This document shows positions 25,325-46,182 of a stretch of 46,182 bases of DNA, one piece after another. The notes under the pieces are model-generated. The model did not search any database, was not told the DNA's origin, and worked only from the letters and a program-made list of their open reading frames with translations. The stretch is from Acidobacteria bacterium RIFCSPLOWO2_12_FULL_65_11 (GTDB lineage: Bacteria; Acidobacteriota; Vicinamibacteria; Vicinamibacterales; CAVVIG01). The stretch lies in assembly GCA_001767495.1 (NCBI GenBank), contig MELA01000122.1:1-46182 (forward strand), given 5' to 3'. How positions within the stretch are numbered: position 1 is the stretch's first letter; the number at the start of each line of letters is the position of its first letter. The translations under genes were made by a program, and so were the position numbers.

Positions 25325-25904
25325 GCCGAATGCGTCGCCTACGTTCGCAGCGAGCGGGCGGGTCAACGAGTGATGGAGAGCGTGACGCGATTCATCACAC
25401 AACAGCTCAAGCTCAAGGTGAACGAGACCAAGAGTGCGGTGGCGCGACCGCAGGATCGAAAGCTTCTTGGATTCAGCTTTACGGCCGGACCAGAGGTGAA
25501 GCGCACGATTGCGCCGAAGGCTCTCAACCGGTTCAAAGCCAGGGTTCGAGAGATCACGCGACGGGCCAAAGGCGTCAGCATCGAGACGACGATAGCGGAA
25601 CTGGCTCCCTATCTGCGGGGCTGGCGAAACTATTTCGGCTTTTGCGAAACGCCCGAGGCGCTAGTGTATCTCACCCGCTGGGTCCGGTTGCGATTGCGAG
25701 CGGCGTTGTGGCGGCAATGGAAAACACCGCGCCGCCGCCGGGCGGTTCTCATCGCACTGGGGGTCCGTCCGCGACTGGCCCGCAACACGGCCGGCAGCGG
25801 CCTCGGTCCTTAGGTATCTTGCCAGGGCCAAGGCCCTCTCGGTCGGGCTTTCTAATGCGTACTTCACCTCACTCGGACTTCCGACGCTGATCGACGGGGC
25901 TTAG
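25325..25904 (+). pseudogene. Group II intron maturase, C-terminal fragment
   Basis: From about 25328 the frame reads ECVAYVRSERAGQRVMESVTRFI, where intact maturases have the reverse transcriptase YADD site, so the homology begins just after the catalytic aspartates. It continues with ETKSAVARPQDRKLLGFSFTAGPEVKRTIAPKALNRFKARVREITRRAKGVSIETTIAELAPYLRGWRNYFGFCETP (thumb/domain X) and VRLRLRAALWRQWKTPRRRR. A frameshift near 25800 shifts the last block, ALSVGLSNAYFTSLGLPTLIDGA, to another frame, ending at TAG 25902-25904. The fingers and palm with YADD are missing, so no reverse transcription is possible. Confidence 0.88.
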
Positions 25905-25911
25905 CGCCACC

Positions 25912-25990
25912 GACTCGAACCGCCGTGTACGGACCCGTACGCACGGTGGTGTGGCAGGGGTCGGCGGGCAACCGTCGCCCCTATGCCGAT
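25912..25990 (+). ncRNA. Group II intron 3' end (domain V and VI-like hairpins)
   Basis: Directly after the maturase stop, ACCGCCGTGTACGG (25919-25932) pairs with GTACGCACGGTGGT (25937-25950), resembling a domain V stem with internal bulge. A second hairpin, GGGGTCGGCGG, GCAA loop, CCGTCGCCCC (25957-25981), is in the domain VI position, and the sequence ends ...CTATGCCGAT, agreeing with the 3' AY of group II introns, at about 25990. The 5' domains are missing, so the ribozyme is inactive. Exact domain boundaries were judged by eye. Confidence 0.55.
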
Positions 25991-26666
25991 CAATGTTTCC
26001 TATCATCTCACGTTGGTCGCTTCGACCGTCAGAATCCCCAGATCTCTGCCGATGCTGGTCAGAATGAACGAGAATTCCCCAATCTGCGCGAGCGCAATCG
26101 CGACCGCTAACGCCACTCTGAAGGGGTACCGGAGTGCCCGGACAATCAGCAGCGCGATCAGGGGTTTCCCGATGAGCACGACCGCGAGCGTTGCCCCGAT
26201 CAGGGCCGGCGCCTGAAGCAGGTACATCGGATTCAGCAGCATTCCGACGGATACGAAAAAGAGCACGGCAAACGCGTCTCGCATCGGCAGCGCTTCCGAT
26301 GCGGCCCGCAGGCTGTAATCCGAGCGCCCGACGACGAGCCAAGGCGCGTGCAATCACCGCCCCCAGCACCGTGGCGACGCCACTCTGCACCATCGCGCCC
26401 GGCACGGCGACGCGGCGGACCGCCAGCAGTTCCTCTATCCTGAACTGCAGACCAACTCCAAACATCAGGAGTACGACGCCGACCTCTGCGAGCTGCTCCG
26501 CGATGCCGACGTTCGCCACGAAACCCGGCGTGTAGGGTCCCACGGCCGTTCCCGCGAGTAGGTATCCGACGAGCGGCGATAGGTCCAGACGCTGCGTGAC
26601 GTATCCCAACACGAGCGCGGCAGAGAGCCCGATCGACAGGAGCAGGATAAGGTCGAGGTTATGCAC
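25991..26666 (-). pseudogene. KefB-type cation:proton antiporter with internal deletion
   Basis: From GTG 26666 the protein begins as a Kef-type antiporter: HNLDLILLLSIGLSAALVLGYVTQRLDLSPLVGYLLAGTAVGPYTPGF, then EQLAEVGVVLLMFGVGLQF. Near 26350 it jumps, with a frameshift, from the equivalent of about residue 130 straight to VVGRSDYSLRAASEALPMRDAFAVLFFVSVGMLLNPMYLL, which belongs some 200 residues further on. The frame then stops at 26003, where relatives continue, a few bases before the intron end. The transporter core and the C-terminal TrkA-N domain are missing. Confidence 0.85.
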
Positions 26667-27064
26667 GGATATCCCTGTAGACACGGCGGCCGCTCTTCCG
26701 TTCCCACCGCACGACGGCTCGACGCCCTCGCGCGTGCTCGAGCCCGTGGCATCTCCCTCCACGAGCTACGATGCGGACGACATGATGCTGCGGGAGCATG
26801 ATGATCACGGGGACGAGCACCGTGGCTTCGCAAGAGCATGCCAGTGTCAGTCTGTCGCCAGCATGCGCCAAGCTGCGATGATTTTCCATGGACGCCTCGA
26901 TAGTCAAAAGGCCGCCGAAGTGCAGCAGGCTGGGAAACGCCTCGCGGACGACTGGGGCCTGAAGATAGCAGTCGCGCTTGTCGTCGAACGCGGGGTCGGA
27001 AGGGCGCGGGACACTCCAGCCAGGCGGCAGAAGGCACACGGATCCGACCGCCTTCGGCCTGGCC
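26667..27064. other. Gap without a recognisable gene
   Basis: About 400 bases between the antiporter remnant and the OtsA fusion gene. All long frames here are shadow frames without conserved sequence. No repeat, tRNA or clear promoter was seen. Confidence 0.5.
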
Positions 27065-29824
27065 TCAGACCGACGTCTCCTCCCACCCGCGAACCGCGTA
27101 GAGCAACGGCTTGGTCCAGAGGCTCTCGAGCCCCTGCAGGATGTCCGACGCCCAGTTGAAGACATTCCGTCCGGCGACGACCTTCCGCATGGCCCGCATG
27201 CGCGCCATCTGCTCGTCACCCGTCATGTCGATCGCCCGTGAGAGGGCCGCCGCGAACGCCTCGACGTCGTAGGGGTTGATGATGACTGCGCTATCGAGTT
27301 CCTGCGCCGCGCCGGCGAGCGCGCTCAGCACCAGCACGCCGCGCTCATCGTCGCGCGCCGCGACGAACTCTTTCGCCACCAGGTTCATCCCGTCGTGGAG
27401 CGAGCTGACGACGCAGACGTGCGCCAGACGGTACAGCGCCACGAGACTGAATGCCGCGAGCGGCGTCGTGTGATAGCAGACGACCGGCGCCCCACCCGGC
27501 ACCGCGTGCTTGGCATTGACCGCCGCCACCCGCCGCCCGATTTCGGCCTCCATCGCGGCATAGCTCTCGAGATCGGAACGGGACGGCACGCCAATCTGGA
27601 CGAAGGTCATCCTGCCGCGAAGCTCCGGCCGCCGCTCCATGAGCGCATCGAGCGCGTCGAGGCGCTCCGGGATGCCCTTGGTGTAGTCGAGACGGTCGAC
27701 GCCGAGCCCGATCAGGCCGGCCCGAAGGTCGAGCAGGTCCCGCAGGCGCCGCTGTTCGTCCGCGAGCGCCGGGTCGGCGGCAAAGTTCTGGATGCGGTCG
27801 TAGTCCACGCCGATCGGCACCGAGACGACGGTGGTGGAGCGCCCGCCGAATCGGACTCGTGACGACTCGATCTCCACCTCGGCGTTCAACTCCTCTTCGG
27901 CGGCCATCAGAAAGTTTCGGCGATCGCGCTCCAGTTGAAACGCGATCAGATCGTTGGCGAGCAGGCCCGCGACAATCTCGCGCCGCCACGGGCAAATGCG
28001 GAGCCGATCCGGATACGGCCACGGGATGTGCCAGAAGAGCGCGGTTCGAGCGGCGGGCCGCAGCGCACGCAGAGCCGGCGCCACGAGCGCCAGGTGATAG
28101 TCCTGGAGGAATACCGGCGCCTCCGACGATCCGAGCTCCGCGTGAGCCGCGGCGGCGAAGCGCGCGTTCACGTCCTGATACGCCGCCCAATCCTCGCTCC
28201 GGAACTTCGGGCGGACGTCGACCACATGGCAAAGCGGCCAGAGGCCCTCGTTCGCAAAACCCCCATAGTACGCGGAGAAGGTGGGTTCCTCGATCCACAA
28301 GCGGCGAAGCACGTACGAAGGATTCTCGGGAGGCACGCGCAGTTTGTCGTTCGCGTCGACCACCAGACGGTCCGCCGAGCCGGCCCCGTGCGCGATCCAC
28401 ACCCCGCCTCGCTCGCGCATCAGCGCGTCCAGCGCGACGGCGACCCCACCCGTCGCGGCCTTCACGACAATCCGGCCCTCCTCATCCTGGTTGTGGAGGT
28501 ACGGCTCGCGGTTGGACACGACCACGAGAGGGCTGGGCACGTGCGCATCGACCTCGCCCGCCTGAACCAGGCCATGGCGAAAGAGGATCGGCCCCACGAG
28601 CTCGTGAATCGCGATCGACGCGACCACCAGCAGCTGCAGCTGGTTGCCCCATCCCGGGAACTCGGTGGCGACGACGGAGGCAAACCCCAGGGTGATGCCT
28701 GCTTGGGAGACGAGCCCCGTCCACGCGTACTGCCCGATCGCCGCAGGCAGCCCGGAATGCTTCATGCCGGCTCCAACGCCCAATCGGATGAATCCAAGCC
28801 GGACGGCGGACAAGGCGACAGCGCTCAACCCGATGGCCGACACCGCATCGAGTCGAAGCGACGTGCCCACCGCGACAAAGAAGACCACCAGCACCGGCGG
28901 GGCGCCCCGGCGCACGGCCGCCCGCAGCGTGTCGCCCTGCGCGACCGCCAGGTTCTCGATGACGAGGCCCGCGGCGACGGCCGCGAGCAGCGGCTCGAGC
29001 TGCTGTGTGGTGCCGACCTGACTGAGCACGGCGCACACCGCCAGGAGGACCAGCGTGATCTCCCGGCCGATGTAGCGCATGTAGAGCGCGAAGAGGACGC
29101 CGACGATCACGCCGAACGCGACGGCCCCCCCGATCTCCCACGCGAGGCGTGCCAGCACCTCGGCCCCCTGGCCGTCGCCGGTGCCAAACACGACGCGCGT
29201 CGCCTGCATCGACACCGAGAAGAGCACCAGCATCGCGAGGTCGGCCAGCACGACCATGGCCAGCACCGTATCGCTCAGCGGCCCGCGCGCTCCCGAGTCC
29301 GCCACAATCGCGGCGGTCATCGTCGGCGAGAAGGACACGACGATGATGACGAGCAGGGCCAGCATGGCCAGCCGCTCGAACCCCGCGGCCTCGGCCGCGA
29401 TGGGGAGCCACGGCCAGAGCATCCAGCCCACGGCCGCCAGACCGGCGATCGCGACACCCAGCGTGGTCCCGGTCATGCGCGCGATGGCCGCGAGCCGCGA
29501 ACCGAGGCGTTCGATGCTCAACGTCAGGCCGGCGATGAGCGCAATCAGCGTCGTGGCGATCCCCGTGACCACTTGAAGCTGGGCCGCCATCGATTCCGTG
29601 ATCAGGTTGCCCACATACGGCCCGACAATCACGCCGAAGACGAGGTACCCGGTGACGCGCGGGAGTCTGAACCGCCGCAGCGCGTCGCCCGTCACCGACG
29701 CGCCCATCAGCGCGAACCCGAGCGCCAGCGCCGTGGCGGCCGAACCGGCCGTCGCGCGAATGCCGAGGTCGCGCACCCAGACCATGGCGGCAACCGCCAG
29801 CGCAAGAGCGAGCAGGCGCCTCAC
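27065..29824 (-). CDS. Cation:proton antiporter fused to trehalose-6-phosphate synthase
   Basis: A single 919-codon frame from GTG 29824, which overlaps the previous stop (GTGA). Residues 1-about 425 are a polytopic Na+/H+-exchanger domain with some 12 helices (FRLPRVTGYLVFGVIVGPYVGNLI, VSFSPTMTAAIVADSGARGPLSDTVLAMVVLADLAML). After a short linker (FRHGLVQAGEVDAHVPSP) residues 430-919 form a full OtsA (GT20) enzyme: VVVSNREPYLHN, LQDYHLALVAPALR, FWHIPWPYPDRLRICPWRREI, VPIGVDYDRI, GVDRLDYTKGIPERL (about 710) and SSLHDGMNLVAKEF (about 808). Family-conserved substrate residues are all visible, so both halves look functional. It would join ion/proton exchange with UDP-glucose-dependent trehalose-6-phosphate synthesis at the membrane. 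Last gene of a three-gene operon; no trehalose phosphatase is in the window. Confidence 0.9.
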   Translation of the reverse strand: MRRLLALALAVAAMVWVRDLGIRATAGSAATALALGFALMGASVTGDALRRFRLPRVTGYLVFGVIVGPYVGNLITESMAAQLQVVTGIATTLIALIAGLTLSIERLGSRLAAIARMTGTTLGVAIAGLAAVGWMLWPWLPIAAEAAGFERLAMLALLVIIVVSFSPTMTAAIVADSGARGPLSDTVLAMVVLADLAMLVLFSVSMQATRVVFGTGDGQGAEVLARLAWEIGGAVAFGVIVGVLFALYMRYIGREITLVLLAVCAVLSQVGTTQQLEPLLAAVAAGLVIENLAVAQGDTLRAAVRRGAPPVLVVFFVAVGTSLRLDAVSAIGLSAVALSAVRLGFIRLGVGAGMKHSGLPAAIGQYAWTGLVSQAGITLGFASVVATEFPGWGNQLQLLVVASIAIHELVGPILFRHGLVQAGEVDAHVPSPLVVVSNREPYLHNQDEEGRIVVKAATGGVAVALDALMRERGGVWIAHGAGSADRLVVDANDKLRVPPENPSYVLRRLWIEEPTFSAYYGGFANEGLWPLCHVVDVRPKFRSEDWAAYQDVNARFAAAAHAELGSSEAPVFLQDYHLALVAPALRALRPAARTALFWHIPWPYPDRLRICPWRREIVAGLLANDLIAFQLERDRRNFLMAAEEELNAEVEIESSRVRFGGRSTTVVSVPIGVDYDRIQNFAADPALADEQRRLRDLLDLRAGLIGLGVDRLDYTKGIPERLDALDALMERRPELRGRMTFVQIGVPSRSDLESYAAMEAEIGRRVAAVNAKHAVPGGAPVVCYHTTPLAAFSLVALYRLAHVCVVSSLHDGMNLVAKEFVAARDDERGVLVLSALAGAAQELDSAVIINPYDVEAFAAALSRAIDMTGDEQMARMRAMRKVVAGRNVFNWASDILQGLESLWTKPLLYAVRGWEETSV

Positions 29825-30906
29825 GTGCCCGCTCCCTGAGGCGGGAGGAAGAGCGCGACCAGCTCGGATCCGATCGTGCCAATCACGACCATCGTCAGGA
29901 GAATCGAGGCGTCCGAGCCGACGGCCCGGACCGCGTTGAGCGCGAAGGCCACGCCGAATACGCCCGGCGAGAGCAGGTGCAGCCCGAGATCGCTTGGCAC
30001 CCTGGCCCCAACCGCTTGTCTCGCCATGAGGCCGCCGGCAAGCGTGCCCGCGACTCTCAGCGCCGCGTAGGCGCCTCCGAGTCCCAGTGAGAGGGGTAAG
30101 AGGTCCGTGTGCGCCCCGGCGACCAGCAGGACGAGAACAAGCAGCGGGTGCTGCACGAAGAGCACATCGCGACTGACAGCTTCGCGGGGCAGCCGCCCGG
30201 CATACCGCCAGAAGACGCCGGCGACCAGTCCGCCGAGCAACGCGGAGACGGAAAGGGCGTCCGTGACCCCGCCGACGAGCAACAACACCGCAATGGCAAA
30301 CACGCGCTCCTCTGTTTCGCCAGAGGCCCGTGTCAAGAGCAGCCACCCGGCGGCGGCCAGGACCAGCGTGACGCCGGAAGCCTGGGCTACGAGGATAAGG
30401 CCCGCCGCCGGGGCGCCCTCGCGAAGCGAGGCGATGAGGGGCCCGCCCGCCACGATGGGGAGCAGGACGCCGAGCTCGGCGACGCGCGCGGCCGCGGTTC
30501 GGGGCTCCAGCGGATTGCCGGTCGGCAGCGTGAGCGAGGTGGCGGCACAGAGGCCGGCGGCCAGCGGCAGCGTCCAGACGGGCCAGCTCGTCGACGCGAT
30601 CGTGGCGGACAGGACAAACGCGGTCCCACCCGCCACCACGATGGCTGTCGCCGCCGTCTCGAGGCACGCCGCGGCGAACATGTACCGATCGCCCGCCCGA
30701 TGATGGCCCGCCCCCAATCCCACGAGCACGCCAAGGGCGGCGAGCGCCACGGGGACGACCGAATCGAGAACAGACAACACGGCCTCGGACAACAGGTTGA
30801 TTCCCTGAGGGCCGACGGCGATTCCCGACAGGAGGAGCAGGGCCACCGGCGCCGACGTGGCCGACCATCCAAGCGATCCGCGCCAGCTGGCCGGACGGAA
30901 CCTCAT
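29821..30906 (-). CDS. Polytopic antiporter-like membrane protein
   Basis: 361 residues, about 11 hydrophobic helices. The opening (LLLLSGIAVGPQGINLLSEAVLSVLDSVVPVALAALGVLVGLGAG) resembles the first helices of Kef/Na+-H+ exchangers, where GPxGxxLL is the typical loop; later ELGVLLPIVAGGPLIASL, VSALLGGLVAGVFWRYAG and LLSPGVFGVAFALNAVRAVGSDASILLTMVVIGTIGSELVALFLPP agree with such a protein. The ATG overlaps the PDZ gene stop (ATGA) and its own stop overlaps the fusion gene, so all three are translated together. It may be a second antiporter subunit; family is less certain than for its neighbour. Confidence 0.7.
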   Translation of the reverse strand: MRFRPASWRGSLGWSATSAPVALLLLSGIAVGPQGINLLSEAVLSVLDSVVPVALAALGVLVGLGAGHHRAGDRYMFAAACLETAATAIVVAGGTAFVLSATIASTSWPVWTLPLAAGLCAATSLTLPTGNPLEPRTAAARVAELGVLLPIVAGGPLIASLREGAPAAGLILVAQASGVTLVLAAAGWLLLTRASGETEERVFAIAVLLLVGGVTDALSVSALLGGLVAGVFWRYAGRLPREAVSRDVLFVQHPLLVLVLLVAGAHTDLLPLSLGLGGAYAALRVAGTLAGGLMARQAVGARVPSDLGLHLLSPGVFGVAFALNAVRAVGSDASILLTMVVIGTIGSELVALFLPPQGAGT

Positions 30907-32189
30907 CGGTCCAACGTGAGGACGTGGTGGGTGTCGGCGCGCGTGACGGCAATTATCACGCGCTGGCCCTGAGGCATCGAGGAGAACGACCGCGCAATTT
31001 GCGCCGGCGTTGGCGCCGCGATCTCGCCAATCAGGGTGATCAGGTCTCCGGCGGTCAGTCCGGCAAGGTCGGCCGCCGACACCCGCTCGACACGGACCAC
31101 CTCACTGCCGATTCCGGGCCGCCCGCGCAGGGTGAGGCCCAGCGGCCGGGCGGCAGGCTGCGCCGCGGGGGCACTCGCGACCAACACGACCTCGCGAACC
31201 TCGCCGCGGCTGCGCACACCAAGCGTGAGTCGATCGCCCGCCGACAGACGAGCCATGCGGGCGTCCCACTCGTCCCGGGTCACGAGCGCGCGGCCGTCCA
31301 CGGCTTCAATGACGTCGCCGGCCCTTAACATCCCATTGGCGGCGCCCTCCATGTCGATCCACGTGACGACGACGCCCACCGAGGCGCCGGTCACGGCCGA
31401 GAGCGCCGGGGTCAGCGGCTGTACCTCAACGCCAATCGCTCCCGCTGGTCCACTCGGTCTCTCAAGCAAGCGCTCCACGTCGGCGAGAAGCGTCCCGCCA
31501 GGGACGATCGCCAGCCCGGAGCCGTGCTCGATCGCCAGACCCACCAGCTCCGCGGCGTCGGTGAAGAGGAACGATCCGCGCACGAGGCCGCTCTGCGCCG
31601 GCACGGCCCACAGGGGCTCGGCCCACTGCGGGCTCTCGGCCGGATCGAGCGATCCCACAAACGCCGGGCGCAACGAAACGCCCAGTGGCGACACGTCGGT
31701 CGCGATGAGGTAGCGTGGTTGCCGCGCCCGTCGGAGCGTCCACGGCACCGGAGGCGCTGGCGGCGGCTGGCCAGCCACGCGCACCACCGTCAGGCCGGAA
31801 GCCCGATCGGTGGCCTGGACGCTGATGCCGTCCGGCGCCAGCACGTTGGGCCAGGCTGGCAGCAGGGTGACGGCGAGATCGTCCCGGAGCCTGAGCGCGA
31901 CGATTCGCCGCGGCGGCTGCAGCGGGCCACGCGCAGCCGGCGGCATGTCAAGCGCCAGGAGAAACGGATCCAGACGAGTCTGCGCCTGCGCGATCTGTGA
32001 CGCCAGGTCGTCGTACTGTGGACCACTCGCCAGCTGACTGAGCACCGAGGGGACCGGACTTGGCGCGGCGGGCAACTCAGGGAATCGGATGCGAGCCAGG
32101 ACCCACAGCGCGGCGACCGCCAGCACGCCGGTCGTGAGCAGCAGCCGCGTTTCGCGTGACACTCGAGGTCGATAGTGGCTGAACTCCAT
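30903..32189 (-). CDS. Membrane-anchored, protease-dead HtrA-like protein with two PDZ domains
   Basis: 428 residues from ATG 32189, preferred over an upstream frame extension because the membrane anchor (LLLTTGVLAVAALWVLARI, about 16-34) then lies normally near the N terminus. Residues 90-240 resemble a trypsin-like domain (RRIVALRLRDDLAVTLLP, GLTVVRVAG), but the serine loop reads RGSFLFTDAAELVGLAIEHG where active HtrA has GNSGGPL, so catalysis is lost. Two PDZ domains follow (about 258-340: GVEVQPLTPAL...GAANGMLRAGDVIEAVDGR; about 350-428: ADLAGLTAGDLITLIGE). First gene of the operon; perhaps a scaffold binding C-terminal tails near the antiporters. The gene is divergent from hflK. Confidence 0.75.
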   Translation of the reverse strand: MEFSHYRPRVSRETRLLLTTGVLAVAALWVLARIRFPELPAAPSPVPSVLSQLASGPQYDDLASQIAQAQTRLDPFLLALDMPPAARGPLQPPRRIVALRLRDDLAVTLLPAWPNVLAPDGISVQATDRASGLTVVRVAGQPPPAPPVPWTLRRARQPRYLIATDVSPLGVSLRPAFVGSLDPAESPQWAEPLWAVPAQSGLVRGSFLFTDAAELVGLAIEHGSGLAIVPGGTLLADVERLLERPSGPAGAIGVEVQPLTPALSAVTGASVGVVVTWIDMEGAANGMLRAGDVIEAVDGRALVTRDEWDARMARLSAGDRLTLGVRSRGEVREVVLVASAPAAQPAARPLGLTLRGRPGIGSEVVRVERVSAADLAGLTAGDLITLIGEIAAPTPAQIARSFSSMPQGQRVIIAVTRADTHHVLTLDR

Positions 32190-32392
32190 CGCTTTCTGAA
32201 ATCCCGATCGCACCGGCCAATTGTAGGCGGAATCGATCTCGGCCGGGATGTTGGCCCGCGATCGCGGCATGACGGAGGGACGCGTCCCCGATTCCGATTG
32301 ACCTGCGGGTTCGCTGGTATAAGCTCTAAGACCGGATGCCTTTTTCGCGCTTCGAGAGTCCACCACGGGCGAATGATCGATAAGGAGCCCTT

Positions 32393-33514
32393 ATGAGCAG
32401 ATTTGACGACGACGACGGCGACGACAGAAATGAAGAAGGCAAGGACCAGTTCAACTGGTCCCACCGGCACGACCGGTCTCGCCACTTCGACCAGTACGTG
32501 CGCGCCCTCGACGTCTGGCGGGCCCGCGCCGCGCGCTCCGGCGGGAGCCTTCTCTGGATCGCGGCCGGGCTGCTTCTGCTGGTGTTGCTCGTCGCGACGG
32601 CGTATCAGGTACAGCCCGAGGAAGTCGGCGTGGTCGTCCGACTCGGCAAGTACGTGCGGACCGCGGAGCCTGGCCTACGGCTGAAGATTCCCTTTGTCGA
32701 GCAGGTGTACAAGATCCCCGTCCAGCGGCAGCTCAAGGAGGAATTCGGCTTTCGTACGACCCAGGCCGGTGTGCGCAGCACCTTCAGCGAGCAGAGCTTC
32801 GACACCGAGGCGGTGATGCTGACCGGAGACCTCAACGTTGCCGTGGTCGAGTGGATCGTCCAGTACCGCGTCGCGGACCCGTACCTCTATCTCTTCAAGG
32901 TCCGCAACGTCACCGATACCTTCCGGGCGATGACCGAGGCCATCATGAGGCAGGTGGTTGGCGACCGCACCGTGACAGAGGTGCTGACTGTCGGACGGCA
33001 GGCGATCGAGACGCGGGTGGAAGAGCTGCTGCGGGGGCTCACCGAGCAGTACGAGATGGGCATCACGATCGAGCAGGTCGTGCTGCAGGACGTCAATCCG
33101 CCGGATCCCGTCAAGCCGTCGTGGGACGAGGTCAACCAGGCGCAGCAGCAGCGCGACCGCATGATCAACGAGGCGCGAGCCGAGTACAACAAGGTGATTC
33201 CGCGCGCGAAGGGCGAAGCGCTGCAGGCGGTGCTCGAAGCCGAGGGCTACGGCCTCAATCGCGTGAACCGCGCGCAGGGCGAGGGCGCGCGCTTCCGATC
33301 GATCCAGGCGGCCTACGGCCGCGCGCCGGACGTGACTCGCGAGCGTCTGTACATCGAGACGATGGAGCGCGTGCTGCCTCGAGTAGGAAATAAGCTGTTT
33401 CTCGATCCCGACGTACGGGGCCTTGTGCCGCTGCTGTCGCTCGATGGGCTGAAAGCCACCGCGGCACCAGGCGCCGCCCCGCAGCCGGCATCGCCCGCTG
33501 GAGGTGCCCGATGA
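32393..33514 (+). CDS. hflK: HflK, membrane SPFH protein regulating FtsH
   Basis: 373 residues. Acidic Asp/Glu-rich N terminus, one transmembrane helix (about 53-70), then the SPFH/band-7 domain: VQPEEVGVVVRLGKYVRTAEPGLRLKIPFVEQVYKIPVQRQLKEEFGFRT, and MLTGDLNVAVVEWIVQYRVADPYLYLFKVRN. The coiled-coil C-terminal part (NQAQQQRDRMINEARAEYNKVIPRAKGEALQAVLEAEGYGLNRVNRAQGEGARF) is characteristic of HflK, ending in an Ala/Pro tail. The AAGGAG box is 6 bases before the ATG. In E. coli HflK and HflC surround the FtsH protease. Overlaps hflC by 4 bases. Confidence 0.93.
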   Translation: MSRFDDDDGDDRNEEGKDQFNWSHRHDRSRHFDQYVRALDVWRARAARSGGSLLWIAAGLLLLVLLVATAYQVQPEEVGVVVRLGKYVRTAEPGLRLKIPFVEQVYKIPVQRQLKEEFGFRTTQAGVRSTFSEQSFDTEAVMLTGDLNVAVVEWIVQYRVADPYLYLFKVRNVTDTFRAMTEAIMRQVVGDRTVTEVLTVGRQAIETRVEELLRGLTEQYEMGITIEQVVLQDVNPPDPVKPSWDEVNQAQQQRDRMINEARAEYNKVIPRAKGEALQAVLEAEGYGLNRVNRAQGEGARFRSIQAAYGRAPDVTRERLYIETMERVLPRVGNKLFLDPDVRGLVPLLSLDGLKATAAPGAAPQPASPAGGAR

Positions 33515-34440
33515 ATCGCAGATACCTGGTGGTCGGAATCGTGCTGGCCGTCCTCGTCGCAGCCGCGGCTTCCGCGTTCCGCGTCGGCGAGACCGAGCAG
33601 GTCATCATCACCCAGTTCGGCGATCCGATCGGCGTGCCGATCAAGGATCCCGGGCTGCACTTCAAAGTGCCGTTCATTCAGCAGGCCAACTATTTCGACA
33701 AGCGGTTCCTGGAGTGGGACGGCAATCGCAACCAGGTGCCGACAAAGGACAAGCGGTTCATCTGGGTCGACACGTACGCGCGCTGGCGCATCGTGGATCC
33801 GCTGCGCTTCTTCCAGCGGCTGCGCGACGAGCGGGGCGCCCAGTCGCGCCTCGACGACATCCTCGACGGAGAGACCAGAAACGCCGTCGCCCGGTACGAT
33901 CTCATCGAGCTCGTCCGCAACACCAATCGGAATCCGGCCGATATTCCCATCGAGGCGCAGGAGGAGGAAGTCATTCTCAACAGGATCGAGAAGGGACGCG
34001 ATCGGGTCTCACGGGAGATCCTCGAGCGGGCCTCCAGCCGGACGGCGGATCTGGGCATCGAGCTGCTCGACCTCCGGATCAAGCGCATTAACTACGTCGA
34101 TGAAGTGCAACGCGACGTGTTCGCGCGGATGATTGCCGAGCGCCAGCGGATCGCCGAGCTGTACCGGTCCGAAGGGCAGGGCGAGGCGGCGCGCATCGAG
34201 GGCGAGCGCGAACGGGACCTGCAGCGGATCCAGTCCGAAGCCTTCAGGATGGCCGAGGACCTGCGCGGGAAGGCGGACGCCGAGGCCACCGCCATCTACG
34301 CGGCGGCCTACGGCCGCGACGCCGCCTTCTATTCGTTCACGCGGTCGCTCGAGATGTACGAGAAGATGATCGATCCAGGAACGACGATCATCCTGGGGAC
34401 TGACAGCGAGTTGCTGAGGTACCTGGAGCGGGCACGCTAG
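33511..34440 (+). CDS. hflC: HflC, membrane SPFH protein
   Basis: 309 residues, one N-terminal membrane helix (about 4-24), SPFH domain: VGETEQVIITQFGDPIGVPIKDPGLHFKVPFIQQANYFDKRFLEWDGNRNQVPTKDKRFIWVDTYARWRIVDPLRFFQRLRDERGAQSRLDDI. The hallmark HflC section follows: ELLDLRIKRINYVDEVQRDVFARMIAERQRIAELYRSEGQGEAARIEGERERDLQRIQSEAFRMAEDLRGKADAEATAIYAAAY. Ends with an SLEMYEKMIDPGTTIILGTDSELLRYL region. The ATGA overlap with hflK shows an operon. The pair sits beside stress and trehalose genes, which fits a role in envelope quality control. Confidence 0.95.
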   Translation: MNRRYLVVGIVLAVLVAAAASAFRVGETEQVIITQFGDPIGVPIKDPGLHFKVPFIQQANYFDKRFLEWDGNRNQVPTKDKRFIWVDTYARWRIVDPLRFFQRLRDERGAQSRLDDILDGETRNAVARYDLIELVRNTNRNPADIPIEAQEEEVILNRIEKGRDRVSREILERASSRTADLGIELLDLRIKRINYVDEVQRDVFARMIAERQRIAELYRSEGQGEAARIEGERERDLQRIQSEAFRMAEDLRGKADAEATAIYAAAYGRDAAFYSFTRSLEMYEKMIDPGTTIILGTDSELLRYLERAR

Positions 34441-42638: not shown

Positions 42639-42812
42639 GCTCGAACGCCAGCTCCAGGAGCCGACGCGCGGCGATGACGACGTGAATCACGTCTGAGCGG
42701 TGGGCGGCGGCCGCGCGGGACTCATCGCCGCCTGCCCTCGAGCTCGCGCTTCAGAATGATCGCGGACGGCCTGGCGAACCGAATCCTCACCGCCAGCGGC
42801 GTGCCATCGATC
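42639..42812 (+). repeat. Direct repeat, copy B
   Basis: 174 bases matching 39461-39635. It contains the channel-protein tail LERQLQEPTRGDDDVNHV with its stop codon and the intact 3' end of treZ on the other strand. Left boundary is the cut MscS fragment, an abrupt junction. Confidence 0.93.
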
Positions 42813-44644
42813 TTGAGCGGCGCTGGATCGGGGCTGAAGGCGGGATCCTCGGTCGTCAGGACTTGCTGCCACGGCCCCGTCAGCGCCTCTGTGCGGCCCG
42901 CCCGCCCGCCGAGCCGCTCAACAGGCTCAACAGGGAAGTCGACCACGCCAGCTCCCGTCAAGCACACGACAATGAGAAACGTGCTGTCCGATCCGTCCCG
43001 CCGGATCGCGATTGTGGCGTCATTCAGAGAGGCGACGTGAAACGTCGACGCGCCGTGAAGCGTCGGCTCGTGCCGGCGAAGCGTGAGAAGGGCCTGGTAC
43101 AGCCTTGCGGTGGCCGCATGCGGTTCGCGGTGGCGCTCGTCCCAGATGAGCCTGCTGGAGAGAAACGTCGATGGCGCCTGCGGATCGGGAATCTGCTCGC
43201 GGGCGTTGGGGTCTGAAAATGCCGCAAAGTGGCGGAACTCTTCCCGGCGCCCCGCGGTCACCAACCGGCCGAGCTCGTGATGATGGTCCGAAAAATAGAG
43301 AAACGGCGTGCTGGCCGCCCATTCCTGCCCCATGAACAGCAGCGGCGTTTCCGGGGCCATGAGCAGCAGGACCGACGCGGCGCGGTACGCCGCCGGATCG
43401 ATCTGCTGGTGCAGGCGCTCGCCGAGCGCGCGGTTGCCGATCTGATCGTGGTTTTGGAGACAGATCACGAATCGATTCGGCGGGAGACCGGTCGGGTCGG
43501 TGCCGCGGGAGCGGCCGAGATGGATCGAAAACTCTCCGGCGAAGAACCACCCCCGGCGGATGGTCGTCGCCAGATCCGCGGTGCGACCGCTGTAGTCGCG
43601 ATAGTACCCCTCCGAATCGCCGGCGAGCAGACGCCGGCACTGGTGATGAAAGTCGTCGGCCCACACCGCGTCGAGGCCCCAGCCCCCCTCGCGTTCGGGC
43701 CTCAGCATCCCATCGAGGTTGCGGTGATCCTCCGCCACGACCAGCACGCGCCGACCGGTCGCTGATTCGCGCACCCGCGCGGCCAGCTCGGCGAGGACAT
43801 GGCGCGGGCCCTCGTCGGCGATGGCGTGCGTGGCGTCGAGCCGAAGGCCGTCAACGTGATATTCGTGGACCCAGTGCAGCGCGTTTTCGATAACGAACTC
43901 GCGCACGGCGGCGCTCTGATCGCCGTCGTAGTTCACGCCCGCGCCCCAGGGCGTCTGATGGCGATCGGTGAAGTAGTACGGGCTGAACGCCGAGTGATAC
44001 GCCCCGTCCGGCCCCAGATGGTTGTACACCACGTCGAGAAACACACCGAGGCCGAGACCGTGCGCGGTGTCGACCAGACGCCGCAGATCGTCGGGCGTGC
44101 CGTAGCATCGGGCGGGCGCAAAGAGCGCGACGCCGTCGTAGCCCCAGTTGCGCGCTCCCGGAAAGTCGGCCACCGGCATCAGCTCGATCGCCGTCACGCC
44201 GAGCGTGGCGAGCTGGGCCAGCCGCGACGTGACGCCGGCGAACGTGCCCTCGGGACTGAACGTGCCGACGTGGAGCTCGTAGAAGACGATGTCGTCGAGC
44301 GCGAGGCCCGTCCAGCGATCGTCGGTCCAGCGAAACGATCGCGGGTCCACGACCTGCGACGGCCCGTGCACGCCATCGGGCTGAAACCTCGATGCCGGAT
44401 CGGGCAGCAGGCGGTCGCCGTCGAGACGATAGCGATAGCGGTCGCCGGCGCGAACGCCGGGAAGCACAGCGGAGAAGGCGCCATCCGGCGACGGGGCGAG
44501 GGCATACGCGAGGGGTCCGCCGGGACGCTCAACGATCACATCGACGTCGGTGCTCGACGGCGCCCAGACTCGAAACGTGGTGCCCTCGGAGGCGACGTGC
44601 GCCCCCAGCGACGGTGTCCACGTGCCGGGGATTGGCGCGGTCAT
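42722..44644 (-). CDS. treZ: Malto-oligosyltrehalose trehalohydrolase
   Basis: 640 residues of GH13 subfamily 10 from ATG 44644, which overlaps the maltokinase stop as ATGA. N-terminal CBM48-like domain (GTTFRVWAPSSTDVDVIVE), then DDIVFYELHVGTFSPEGTFAGVTSRLAQLATLGVTAIELMPVADFPGARNWGYDGVALFAP, the TreZ signature. Catalytic residues: D270 in GLRLDATHA, E305 in VVAEDHR and D400 in LQNHDQIGNR. It frees trehalose from maltooligosyl-trehalose made by TreY, which is not in the window. Its last codons are duplicated at copy A. Confidence 0.93.
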   Translation of the reverse strand: MTAPIPGTWTPSLGAHVASEGTTFRVWAPSSTDVDVIVERPGGPLAYALAPSPDGAFSAVLPGVRAGDRYRYRLDGDRLLPDPASRFQPDGVHGPSQVVDPRSFRWTDDRWTGLALDDIVFYELHVGTFSPEGTFAGVTSRLAQLATLGVTAIELMPVADFPGARNWGYDGVALFAPARCYGTPDDLRRLVDTAHGLGLGVFLDVVYNHLGPDGAYHSAFSPYYFTDRHQTPWGAGVNYDGDQSAAVREFVIENALHWVHEYHVDGLRLDATHAIADEGPRHVLAELAARVRESATGRRVLVVAEDHRNLDGMLRPEREGGWGLDAVWADDFHHQCRRLLAGDSEGYYRDYSGRTADLATTIRRGWFFAGEFSIHLGRSRGTDPTGLPPNRFVICLQNHDQIGNRALGERLHQQIDPAAYRAASVLLLMAPETPLLFMGQEWAASTPFLYFSDHHHELGRLVTAGRREEFRHFAAFSDPNAREQIPDPQAPSTFLSSRLIWDERHREPHAATARLYQALLTLRRHEPTLHGASTFHVASLNDATIAIRRDGSDSTFLIVVCLTGAGVVDFPVEPVERLGGRAGRTEALTGPWQQVLTTEDPAFSPDPAPLKIDGTPLAVRIRFARPSAIILKRELEGRRR

Positions 44645-46182
44645 CGGCCGCGGACCTGCCCGACGGGTCCGCTCAGAATCTGGAGGATGCCCGCGAGCGG
44701 GATGCCGACCCACTGAGGCCGGCTCGCCAGCTCGTACGCCAGCTCGTAGAGCACCTTCTCGAGGATGAAGGTGTCGAGCAGCTGCCCGAAGCGTTGATCG
44801 TCGACAGGCACGGGCGCCGCATCCGCCATCGTCTGCCGATAGCGGCTCAAGAACGCTGCCCGAATCCCTGTTTCCCACAGAAGCGCCCGTTCTTCAAACC
44901 GCTCGCGCAGCTTCGGCTGGCGATCCGATACGGCGGCCAGCGCCGCGTACGCGGCATAGCTGAACGAACGCAACATGCCAGCCACGTCCTTGAGCGGCGA
45001 CTGCTTCGCGCGGCGTTCGGCGAGCGATCGCGCCGGTTCCCCCTCGAAATCGATGATCACGAAATCGTCCCCGGCGCACAGGACTTGACCGAGATGGTAG
45101 TCGCCGTGCACGCGCGTCCGCATCGAAGAGGCGGGGACGGTCGCCAGGGAGCTGATGTGGGCATCGAGCCGGGCACGCAGGCTGAGGACGGCGCGTGCGC
45201 GCTCTTGTACCGGTGGCGGCAATGAGTCCAGGCGCCCGGCCAGCGCGGTCAGTGACCGGTGGGCGTCCTCCTGCAGCCGCGCCACCAGGGCTGCGACATG
45301 CGCCGCCGTCAACGCCTCGGGAGCGAAGTCGGGACTGCTGCCCTCGCCGGCGAGGGCGATGTGCAGTTCGGCGGTGCGTTGCCCGAGCAGGGCCGCAGAC
45401 GCCAGAAACGGGATCGTGTCGGTGGCGGGGCCGCGGCGCCTGTCTCGCAACAGGAACTGTTGCACCTCGCCGACCGCGCGATCCCAGGCCGTTCCGCTGT
45501 GTGGGACGAACCCTTGCAGCAGCGCGAGCAGCATCGGCTCTTCACCGGGCCGGGCATACTCGAGGGTGGCTACCAGTGGCGCGATCTGCGTGAATCGCTG
45601 GCGCGACAGGAACACGGCGACTTCGAGCTCAGGGTGCGGGCCCGGCTCCAGACGGCGAAGCAGCTTCAGCACGTAGCGATCGCCGAACCGAATCGAACTG
45701 TTGCTTTGCTCGGCGACGCCGCCGACGATCGGCAAGCCATCAGACGTGGCGTCGCGCCGATAGGCCCTGGCGCGGGCGATACCGTTGTGCAGCGAGATCG
45801 AACGCCCGGTGAGCATGGCGGCCAGCAACGCCCGGCACGCCGCATCGTCCTCGAGCGCGTCGACGAGAGCCGCTCCGGCTCGTCGCGCGATCGTCTCCAC
45901 ACCGAGCGCGCGTTGTACGTCGGCCTCAGACAGGACGGCGAGCGGCGTGAAGTACCGCTCTTCGCCGCCGTCGGCGTATGTCACGCCGGCAATGGCCGGC
46001 ACCAGACCCTCGGGCATCGATCCGACCGGCGACCAGTCCACGAGATGCGTTGCCGCGATCGTGCGCGCCTTTCCCAGGAACCATCGCTGCCTTTCGAGAA
46101 ACGGCCCGAGGGCCTCGCCGAGATCGGTCGCGAGATCGGGGACCCGGAATGGAACCTGGAGGACATGGGCCACGCTCACGAG
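44641..46182 (-). CDS. Maltokinase (5' end at or beyond the window edge)
   Basis: At least 512 codons, open to the right edge; a GTG at 46179 is the first possible start, so it may be complete or the tail of a TreS-maltokinase fusion. N-terminal cap: LGPFLERQRWFLGKARTI, the usual RQRWFxGK motif. Kinase core: SSIRFGDRYVLKLLRRLEPGPHPELEVAVFL (lysine site), MRTRVHGDYHLGQVL (catalytic HGDYHLGQ) and FVIIDFEGEPARSLAERRAKQSPLKDVAGMLRSFSYAA, all hallmark maltokinase motifs. It makes maltose-1-phosphate for GlgE. Forms an operon with treZ (4-base overlap). Confidence 0.9.
   Translation of the reverse strand, partial: LVSVAHVLQVPFRVPDLATDLGEALGPFLERQRWFLGKARTIAATHLVDWSPVGSMPEGLVPAIAGVTYADGGEERYFTPLAVLSEADVQRALGVETIARRAGAALVDALEDDAACRALLAAMLTGRSISLHNGIARARAYRRDATSDGLPIVGGVAEQSNSSIRFGDRYVLKLLRRLEPGPHPELEVAVFLSRQRFTQIAPLVATLEYARPGEEPMLLALLQGFVPHSGTAWDRAVGEVQQFLLRDRRRGPATDTIPFLASAALLGQRTAELHIALAGEGSSPDFAPEALTAAHVAALVARLQEDAHRSLTALAGRLDSLPPPVQERARAVLSLRARLDAHISSLATVPASSMRTRVHGDYHLGQVLCAGDDFVIIDFEGEPARSLAERRAKQSPLKDVAGMLRSFSYAAYAALAAVSDRQPKLRERFEERALLWETGIRAAFLSRYRQTMADAAPVPVDDQRFGQLLDTFILEKVLYELAYELASRPQWVGIPLAGILQILSGPVGQVRGR

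Follow-up and report, generated by a model that had tools for sequence, protein, structure and literature searches.

In bacteria, gene regulation and the effects of ions on soluble enzymes are the usual explanation for the coordination of ion extrusion with the synthesis of compatible solutes. OtsA, the first enzyme of trehalose synthesis, is normally soluble and free-standing; in the bifunctional OtsA-OtsB (TPS-TPP) enzymes its partner is a phosphatase. Antiporters of the CPA2 type (NapA, NHA2, and KefC) share a fold of 13-14 helices with two broken helices, an Asp in helix 5, and the Pfam domain Na_H_Exchanger, and they have either no tail or an RCK domain at the C terminus. Within the antiporter superfamily, C-terminal ligand-binding domains occur in KefC and SLC9C1. 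The cyanobacterial GT20 enzyme GgpS, which also makes an osmolyte, is under direct ion control: nucleic acid binding inhibits it, and inorganic ions free and activate it (PMC4390839). Myxococcus xanthus Q1D5P4 is classified as TC 2.A.37.6.1 and has 432 aa and 14 TMS (PMC3924187).

Here we describe a gene from Acidobacteria bacterium RIFCSPLOWO2_12_FULL_65_11 that joins a CPA2-type antiporter to an OtsA-like GT20 domain. It lies in a 46,182-nucleotide stretch of DNA (contig MELA01000122.1), the whole of which we call the window. The membrane part shares the CPA2-type features listed above, but it differs in having Ala-Asp at the helix-5 motif, a divergent paralogue as partner, and a GT20 tail. 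The GT20 part shares its whole fold and substrate-binding residues with OtsA of E. coli and M. thermoresistibile, but it stands C-terminal to a membrane antiporter and scores under the NCBIfam cut-off for OtsA. Like the TPS-TPP enzymes, the protein fuses GT20 to a partner related to trehalose or the osmotic response, here an N-terminal membrane antiporter; unlike GgpS, which has no link to a transporter, it is attached to one. Size and helix number liken Q1D5P4, which has no GT20 domain, to the M. xanthus homologue found in this study (L161), and among named proteins TC 2.A.37.6.1 is probably closest to the membrane part, within the same subfamily. The first-pass annotation of the window knew of no described protein of this kind, and our full-text literature searches found none (most subscription journals lay outside their scope, and automatic annotations may exist). 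Both component families are already known; the domain architecture is new.

One Gene Encodes an Antiporter and a GT20 Domain

The features of the gene are as follows.

27065..29824, minus strand: fusion gene, CPA2-type antiporter plus OtsA-like (predicted trehalose-6-phosphate synthase) domain; 919 aa, GTG start
28562..29824, minus strand: antiporter domain, residues 1-421, about 14 predicted membrane helices, two of them broken and crossing (Pfam Na_H_Exchanger and model matches)
29240..29242, minus strand: codon of Asp195, the predicted ion-binding residue of helix 5, which falls at the NHE6 ND and NapA DD motifs in alignment
28529..28561, minus strand: linker, residues 422-432
27125..28528, minus strand: GT20 domain, OtsA-like, residues 433-900 (Pfam and structural match to M. 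thermoresistibile OtsA)

A minus-strand frame without stop codons runs from 30952 to 27065, and within it the fusion starts at a GTG at 29824 and ends at a TGA at 27065. The only Pfam domains of the protein, both in this frame, are Na_H_Exchanger (PF00999; residues 48-409, E 5.6e-20, 72 bits against a cut-off of 26.2) and Glyco_transf_20 (PF00982; residues 433-900, E 1.6e-108, profile positions 3-472 of 473); the Pfam search found no C-terminal NAD-binding RCK domain of the KefC type. These results confirm that 27065-29824 is one antiporter-GT20 gene of 919 codons, as had been proposed from its uninterrupted frame. The accompanying claim of a complete GT20 enzyme agrees with the nearly whole profile match, but the domain has about 470 residues rather than the 490 first given.

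An AlphaFold model of the fusion (30 sequences) had a mean pLDDT of 81 and a pTM of 0.58, a value at which the relative placement of the antiporter and GT20 domains is unreliable. The last membrane helix of the model spans residues 392-421 and the first GT20 strand begins at 433, so the linker has about 11 residues and is short, as first described. Structure comparison matched residues 430-903 to M. thermoresistibile OtsA (5jij) with a Z score of 44.2, and the membrane part to NHA2 (Z 32.5) and NapA (Z 31.6) over 376-379 residues. The membrane part is modeled with the NapA/NhaA fold, in which the broken helices 148-177 and 361-388 cross. With the full model as query, one Foldseek search gave GT20 matches alone, and a second structural comparison recovered both domains.

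The Fusion Is Conserved in the Vicinamibacterales

We found the full-length fusion in 27 of 162 Vicinamibacterales genomes, that of the window included, with 48-85% identity to the protein of the window; one further copy is cut by a contig end, which brings the carriers to 28. They are uncultured soil and groundwater Acidobacteriota, and the fused orthologues are spread over six family-level groups of the order. The chance that sequencing or assembly had joined two separate genes is negligible: the junction lies at an identical position in all 27 full-length fusions, none of which contains an internal stop, and we regard an artefact as ruled out by these orthologues. Homologous genomes thus do not always encode two separate proteins. 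Comparison with five close relatives gave dN/dS values of 0.15-0.19 in the antiporter half and 0.10-0.14 in GT20, and both halves are under purifying selection.

No fusion was found in other orders of the class, among 297 genomes sampled across the phylum, among 195 Myxococcota, or on the plasmids searched. The scan of the whole collection used only the antiporter of the fusion's family as query and retained the 80 best of 169 matches, so a GT20 domain joined to other or distant antiporters would escape it.

Three genomes carry unusual copies. One (G297; L085/L164) has a gapped remnant of the fusion, 80-86% identical over residues 303-534 and 850-919, beside an OtsB fragment, which reflects decay or misassembly. 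Two others (G054 and G343; L044 and L081) carry both fused and unfused copies of the antiporter operon, with otsB near the unfused copy.

Operon Context and Origin of the Fusion

The fusion is the last gene of a minus-strand operon in the order PDZ protein, antiporter paralogue A, fusion. The two genes upstream of it are as follows.

29821..30906, minus strand: antiporter paralogue A, divergent, 361 aa (identified with hhalign and Foldseek; no Pfam match)
30903..32366, minus strand: PDZ protein, encoded by the opening gene of the operon and apparently anchored in the membrane by its N terminus (true start uncertain)

Homology between paralogue A and the antiporter of the fusion extends along the full length of A (hhalign E 5.7e-16); in Foldseek, the paralogue A model matched NapA (2.3e-6) and KefC. 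It overlaps the fusion by GTGA (29821-29824), and the PDZ gene overlaps it by ATGA (30903-30906). These overlaps would allow the translational coupling to two upstream membrane genes that the first-pass annotation had described, but of the two genes one encodes the antiporter paralogue and the other a PDZ protein that appears to have a single N-terminal anchor. Wherever the sequence extends far enough, paralogue A precedes the fusion, and in most cases the PDZ gene is also found upstream.

A gene of the OtsB (trehalose-phosphatase) family is present in 24 of the 28 carriers. In 11 genomes it lies directly downstream of the fusion on the same strand, giving the arrangement PDZ-antiporter A-antiporter B::OtsA-OtsB; in the genome of the window it is on a different contig. 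The fusion is the sole GT20 gene of that genome, and likewise of 18 of the 28 carriers.

Several other genes lie near the operon. A YbaL/KefB-like K+ efflux antiporter gene (25869-26762, minus strand), 300 bp downstream of the fusion, is frame-broken: about 115 N-terminal residues match, after which the match continues in another frame at 26003-26353. It is adjoined by the C-terminal part of a group II intron maturase (25370-25813, plus strand). An HflK/HflC-like Band 7 pair (32393-34440, plus strand) is divergent from the PDZ gene, with 26 bp between them. Genes for TreZ and the C-terminal maltokinase of TreS (42722-46179, minus strand), which belong to further trehalose metabolism, lie about 13 kb from the operon.

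The tandem antiporter pair occurs without GT20 in other Vicinamibacteria, Myxococcota, and Gemmatimonadota, and in eight Myxococcota and Gemmatimonadota genomes GT20 and the antiporter are encoded by different genes at different loci. In G299 and G344, two genomes of the Vicinamibacterales with unfused genes, otsA-otsB stands head-to-head with a PDZ gene; beyond that gene comes the complete antiporter operon in G299 and the end of the contig in G344. The otsA genes of both branch close to the base of the GT20 clade in the tree. The fusion probably arose from a neighborhood like theirs, with otsAB beside the antiporter operon. Together with otsB directly downstream of the fusion in 11 relatives, this head-to-head arrangement with the unfused operon also bears out the osmotic theme proposed at the outset.

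Free trees place family f2 outside the main fused group, so two fusions, or one fusion followed by splits, are possible. Two independent fusions are unneeded as an explanation, however, as neither tree rejects a single fused clade (p-AU 0.52 in the GT20 tree and 0.30 in the antiporter tree).

The adjacency of unfused otsAB and antiporter operon in two relatives, the short linker, and the lack of an extra regulatory domain would also suit a fusion that serves co-expression only, giving equal amounts and membrane placement of two working halves with no regulatory coupling between them. We hold this doubtful, though a serious contender: the join is kept across six family-level groups, which suggests that it brings some benefit, of whatever kind.

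The GT20 Domain Is OtsA-like

To assess the GT20 domain, we mapped the donor- and glucose-6-phosphate-binding residues listed for M. thermoresistibile OtsA (PMC6879718) onto the fusion by alignment. R439, Y520, D575, R749, R711, K716, D811, and E819, at acceptor and donor positions, are invariant in the 23 fused proteins aligned. Judged by this alignment, the GT20 domain is complete and has all of the donor- and acceptor-binding residues of OtsA. The domain missed the cut-off of the OtsA equivalog (412 vs 564.85 bits; NCBIfam TIGR02400), and we therefore class it as an OtsA-like GT20 rather than an OtsA equivalog; it also missed that of GgpS (279.8 vs 569 bits; TIGR02398). Because of the former score, the acceptor, the donor, and trehalose-6-phosphate synthesis are predictions, and we infer, with support from the neighboring otsB, that the domain makes trehalose-6-phosphate.

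The shortfall against the OtsA cut-off, and the presence of His479 where M. thermoresistibile OtsA has an active-site Trp (GAWIGW), could instead point to another glucoside phosphate as product, such as glucosylglycerol phosphate. Such a product is distinctly unlikely, given that the OtsA score exceeds that for GgpS (412 against 280 bits), that the glucose-6-phosphate contacts are retained, and that a trehalose-phosphatase family gene lies downstream. It is more improbable still that GT20 senses metabolites to regulate the antiporter and has no need of catalysis. KefC and SLC9C1, whose C-terminal ligand-binding domains provide the precedent, were both among the PDB matches of the paralogue A model, but the invariant substrate-binding residues, the adjacency of otsB, and the status of the fusion as the only GT20 in 18 of 28 carriers all argue for a working enzyme.

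The Antiporter Half and Its Paralogue

In alignment, D195 corresponds to the Asp in the NHE6 ND motif and in NapA DD. Across the 88 gene sets compared, the equivalent Asp is kept in all 61 unfused antiporters and in 24 of the 27 fused proteins, including that of the window. The three exceptions, all of family f2, have Gln or Glu at this position, and their paralogue A retains DD. The converse was seen in ten other fused sets, including that of the window, whose paralogue A has ELG where its relatives have the helix-5 DD: in these, the fusion keeps D195 and its partner has no Asp at that place, reading ELG or similar or missing the stretch altogether. In no fused set was the Asp lost from both partners. 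In G314 (L117/L101), paralogue A is without the central stretch that holds the helix-5 motif and the fusion retains the Asp. Alignment did not support equating the invariant R342 of helix 10 with NapA K305.

Together with the pairing of the two genes, this pattern suggests an A-B heterodimer in which one functional site is required. By our reading of the comparison and the antiporter tree, the Asp was lost about four times in A and once in the fusion; with so few independent losses, the heterodimer is suggestive rather than proven. The three f2 proteins imply that the fused subunit need not transport ions in all carriers, and transport by the fused antiporters of this side branch is uncertain.

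The same three substitutions could mean that the antiporter half no longer transports and instead anchors OtsA in the membrane or senses ions for it. We consider this unlikely, since the remaining 24 fused proteins, that of the window included, and the 61 unfused homologues in the alignment all retain Asp195, and since the antiporter half is under purifying selection. The first-pass annotation had also placed GT20 where exchangers of this type normally carry a regulatory domain. This did not hold: the closest unfused antiporters of the fusion's family end soon after the last helix, so GT20 is not a replacement for such a tail.

A Proposed Role for the Fusion

We lean slightly toward a reading in which a paired CPA2-type antiporter has the fusion as its second subunit, with a complete and active OtsA tethered on the cytosolic side. 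According to this model, A and B would pair as a heterodimer, and at least one of the two protomers would retain the helix-5 Asp and exchange Na+ or K+ for H+. The OtsA domain would convert NDP-glucose and glucose-6-phosphate to trehalose-6-phosphate, from which OtsB would produce trehalose, and the operon would serve in salt or osmotic stress. In the weakest step of the model, the tether would set a 1:1 stoichiometry and would put OtsA where its activity could be set by a change in ions or pH at the membrane or by the antiporter's state, so that osmolyte synthesis and ion extrusion would increase together.

The physical link of antiporter and OtsA-like synthase stands as first described, with complete domains in a fixed order in one conserved frame, and it suggests that ion exchange and osmoprotectant synthesis take place within one machine. 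Direct coupling of ion transport to enzyme activity is plausible. In its strongest form, which we offer as a tentative possibility, the fusion would be an ion-gated osmolyte synthase: the transport state of the heterodimer would directly switch the attached OtsA, making sensing, extrusion, and synthesis one event.

An antiporter pair in which the key Asp is lost from either one partner or the other would be a rare division of labor within a CPA dimer. With OtsA at the first step of trehalose synthesis, its conserved covalent link to an antiporter provides a testable case of coupling at the level of the protein.
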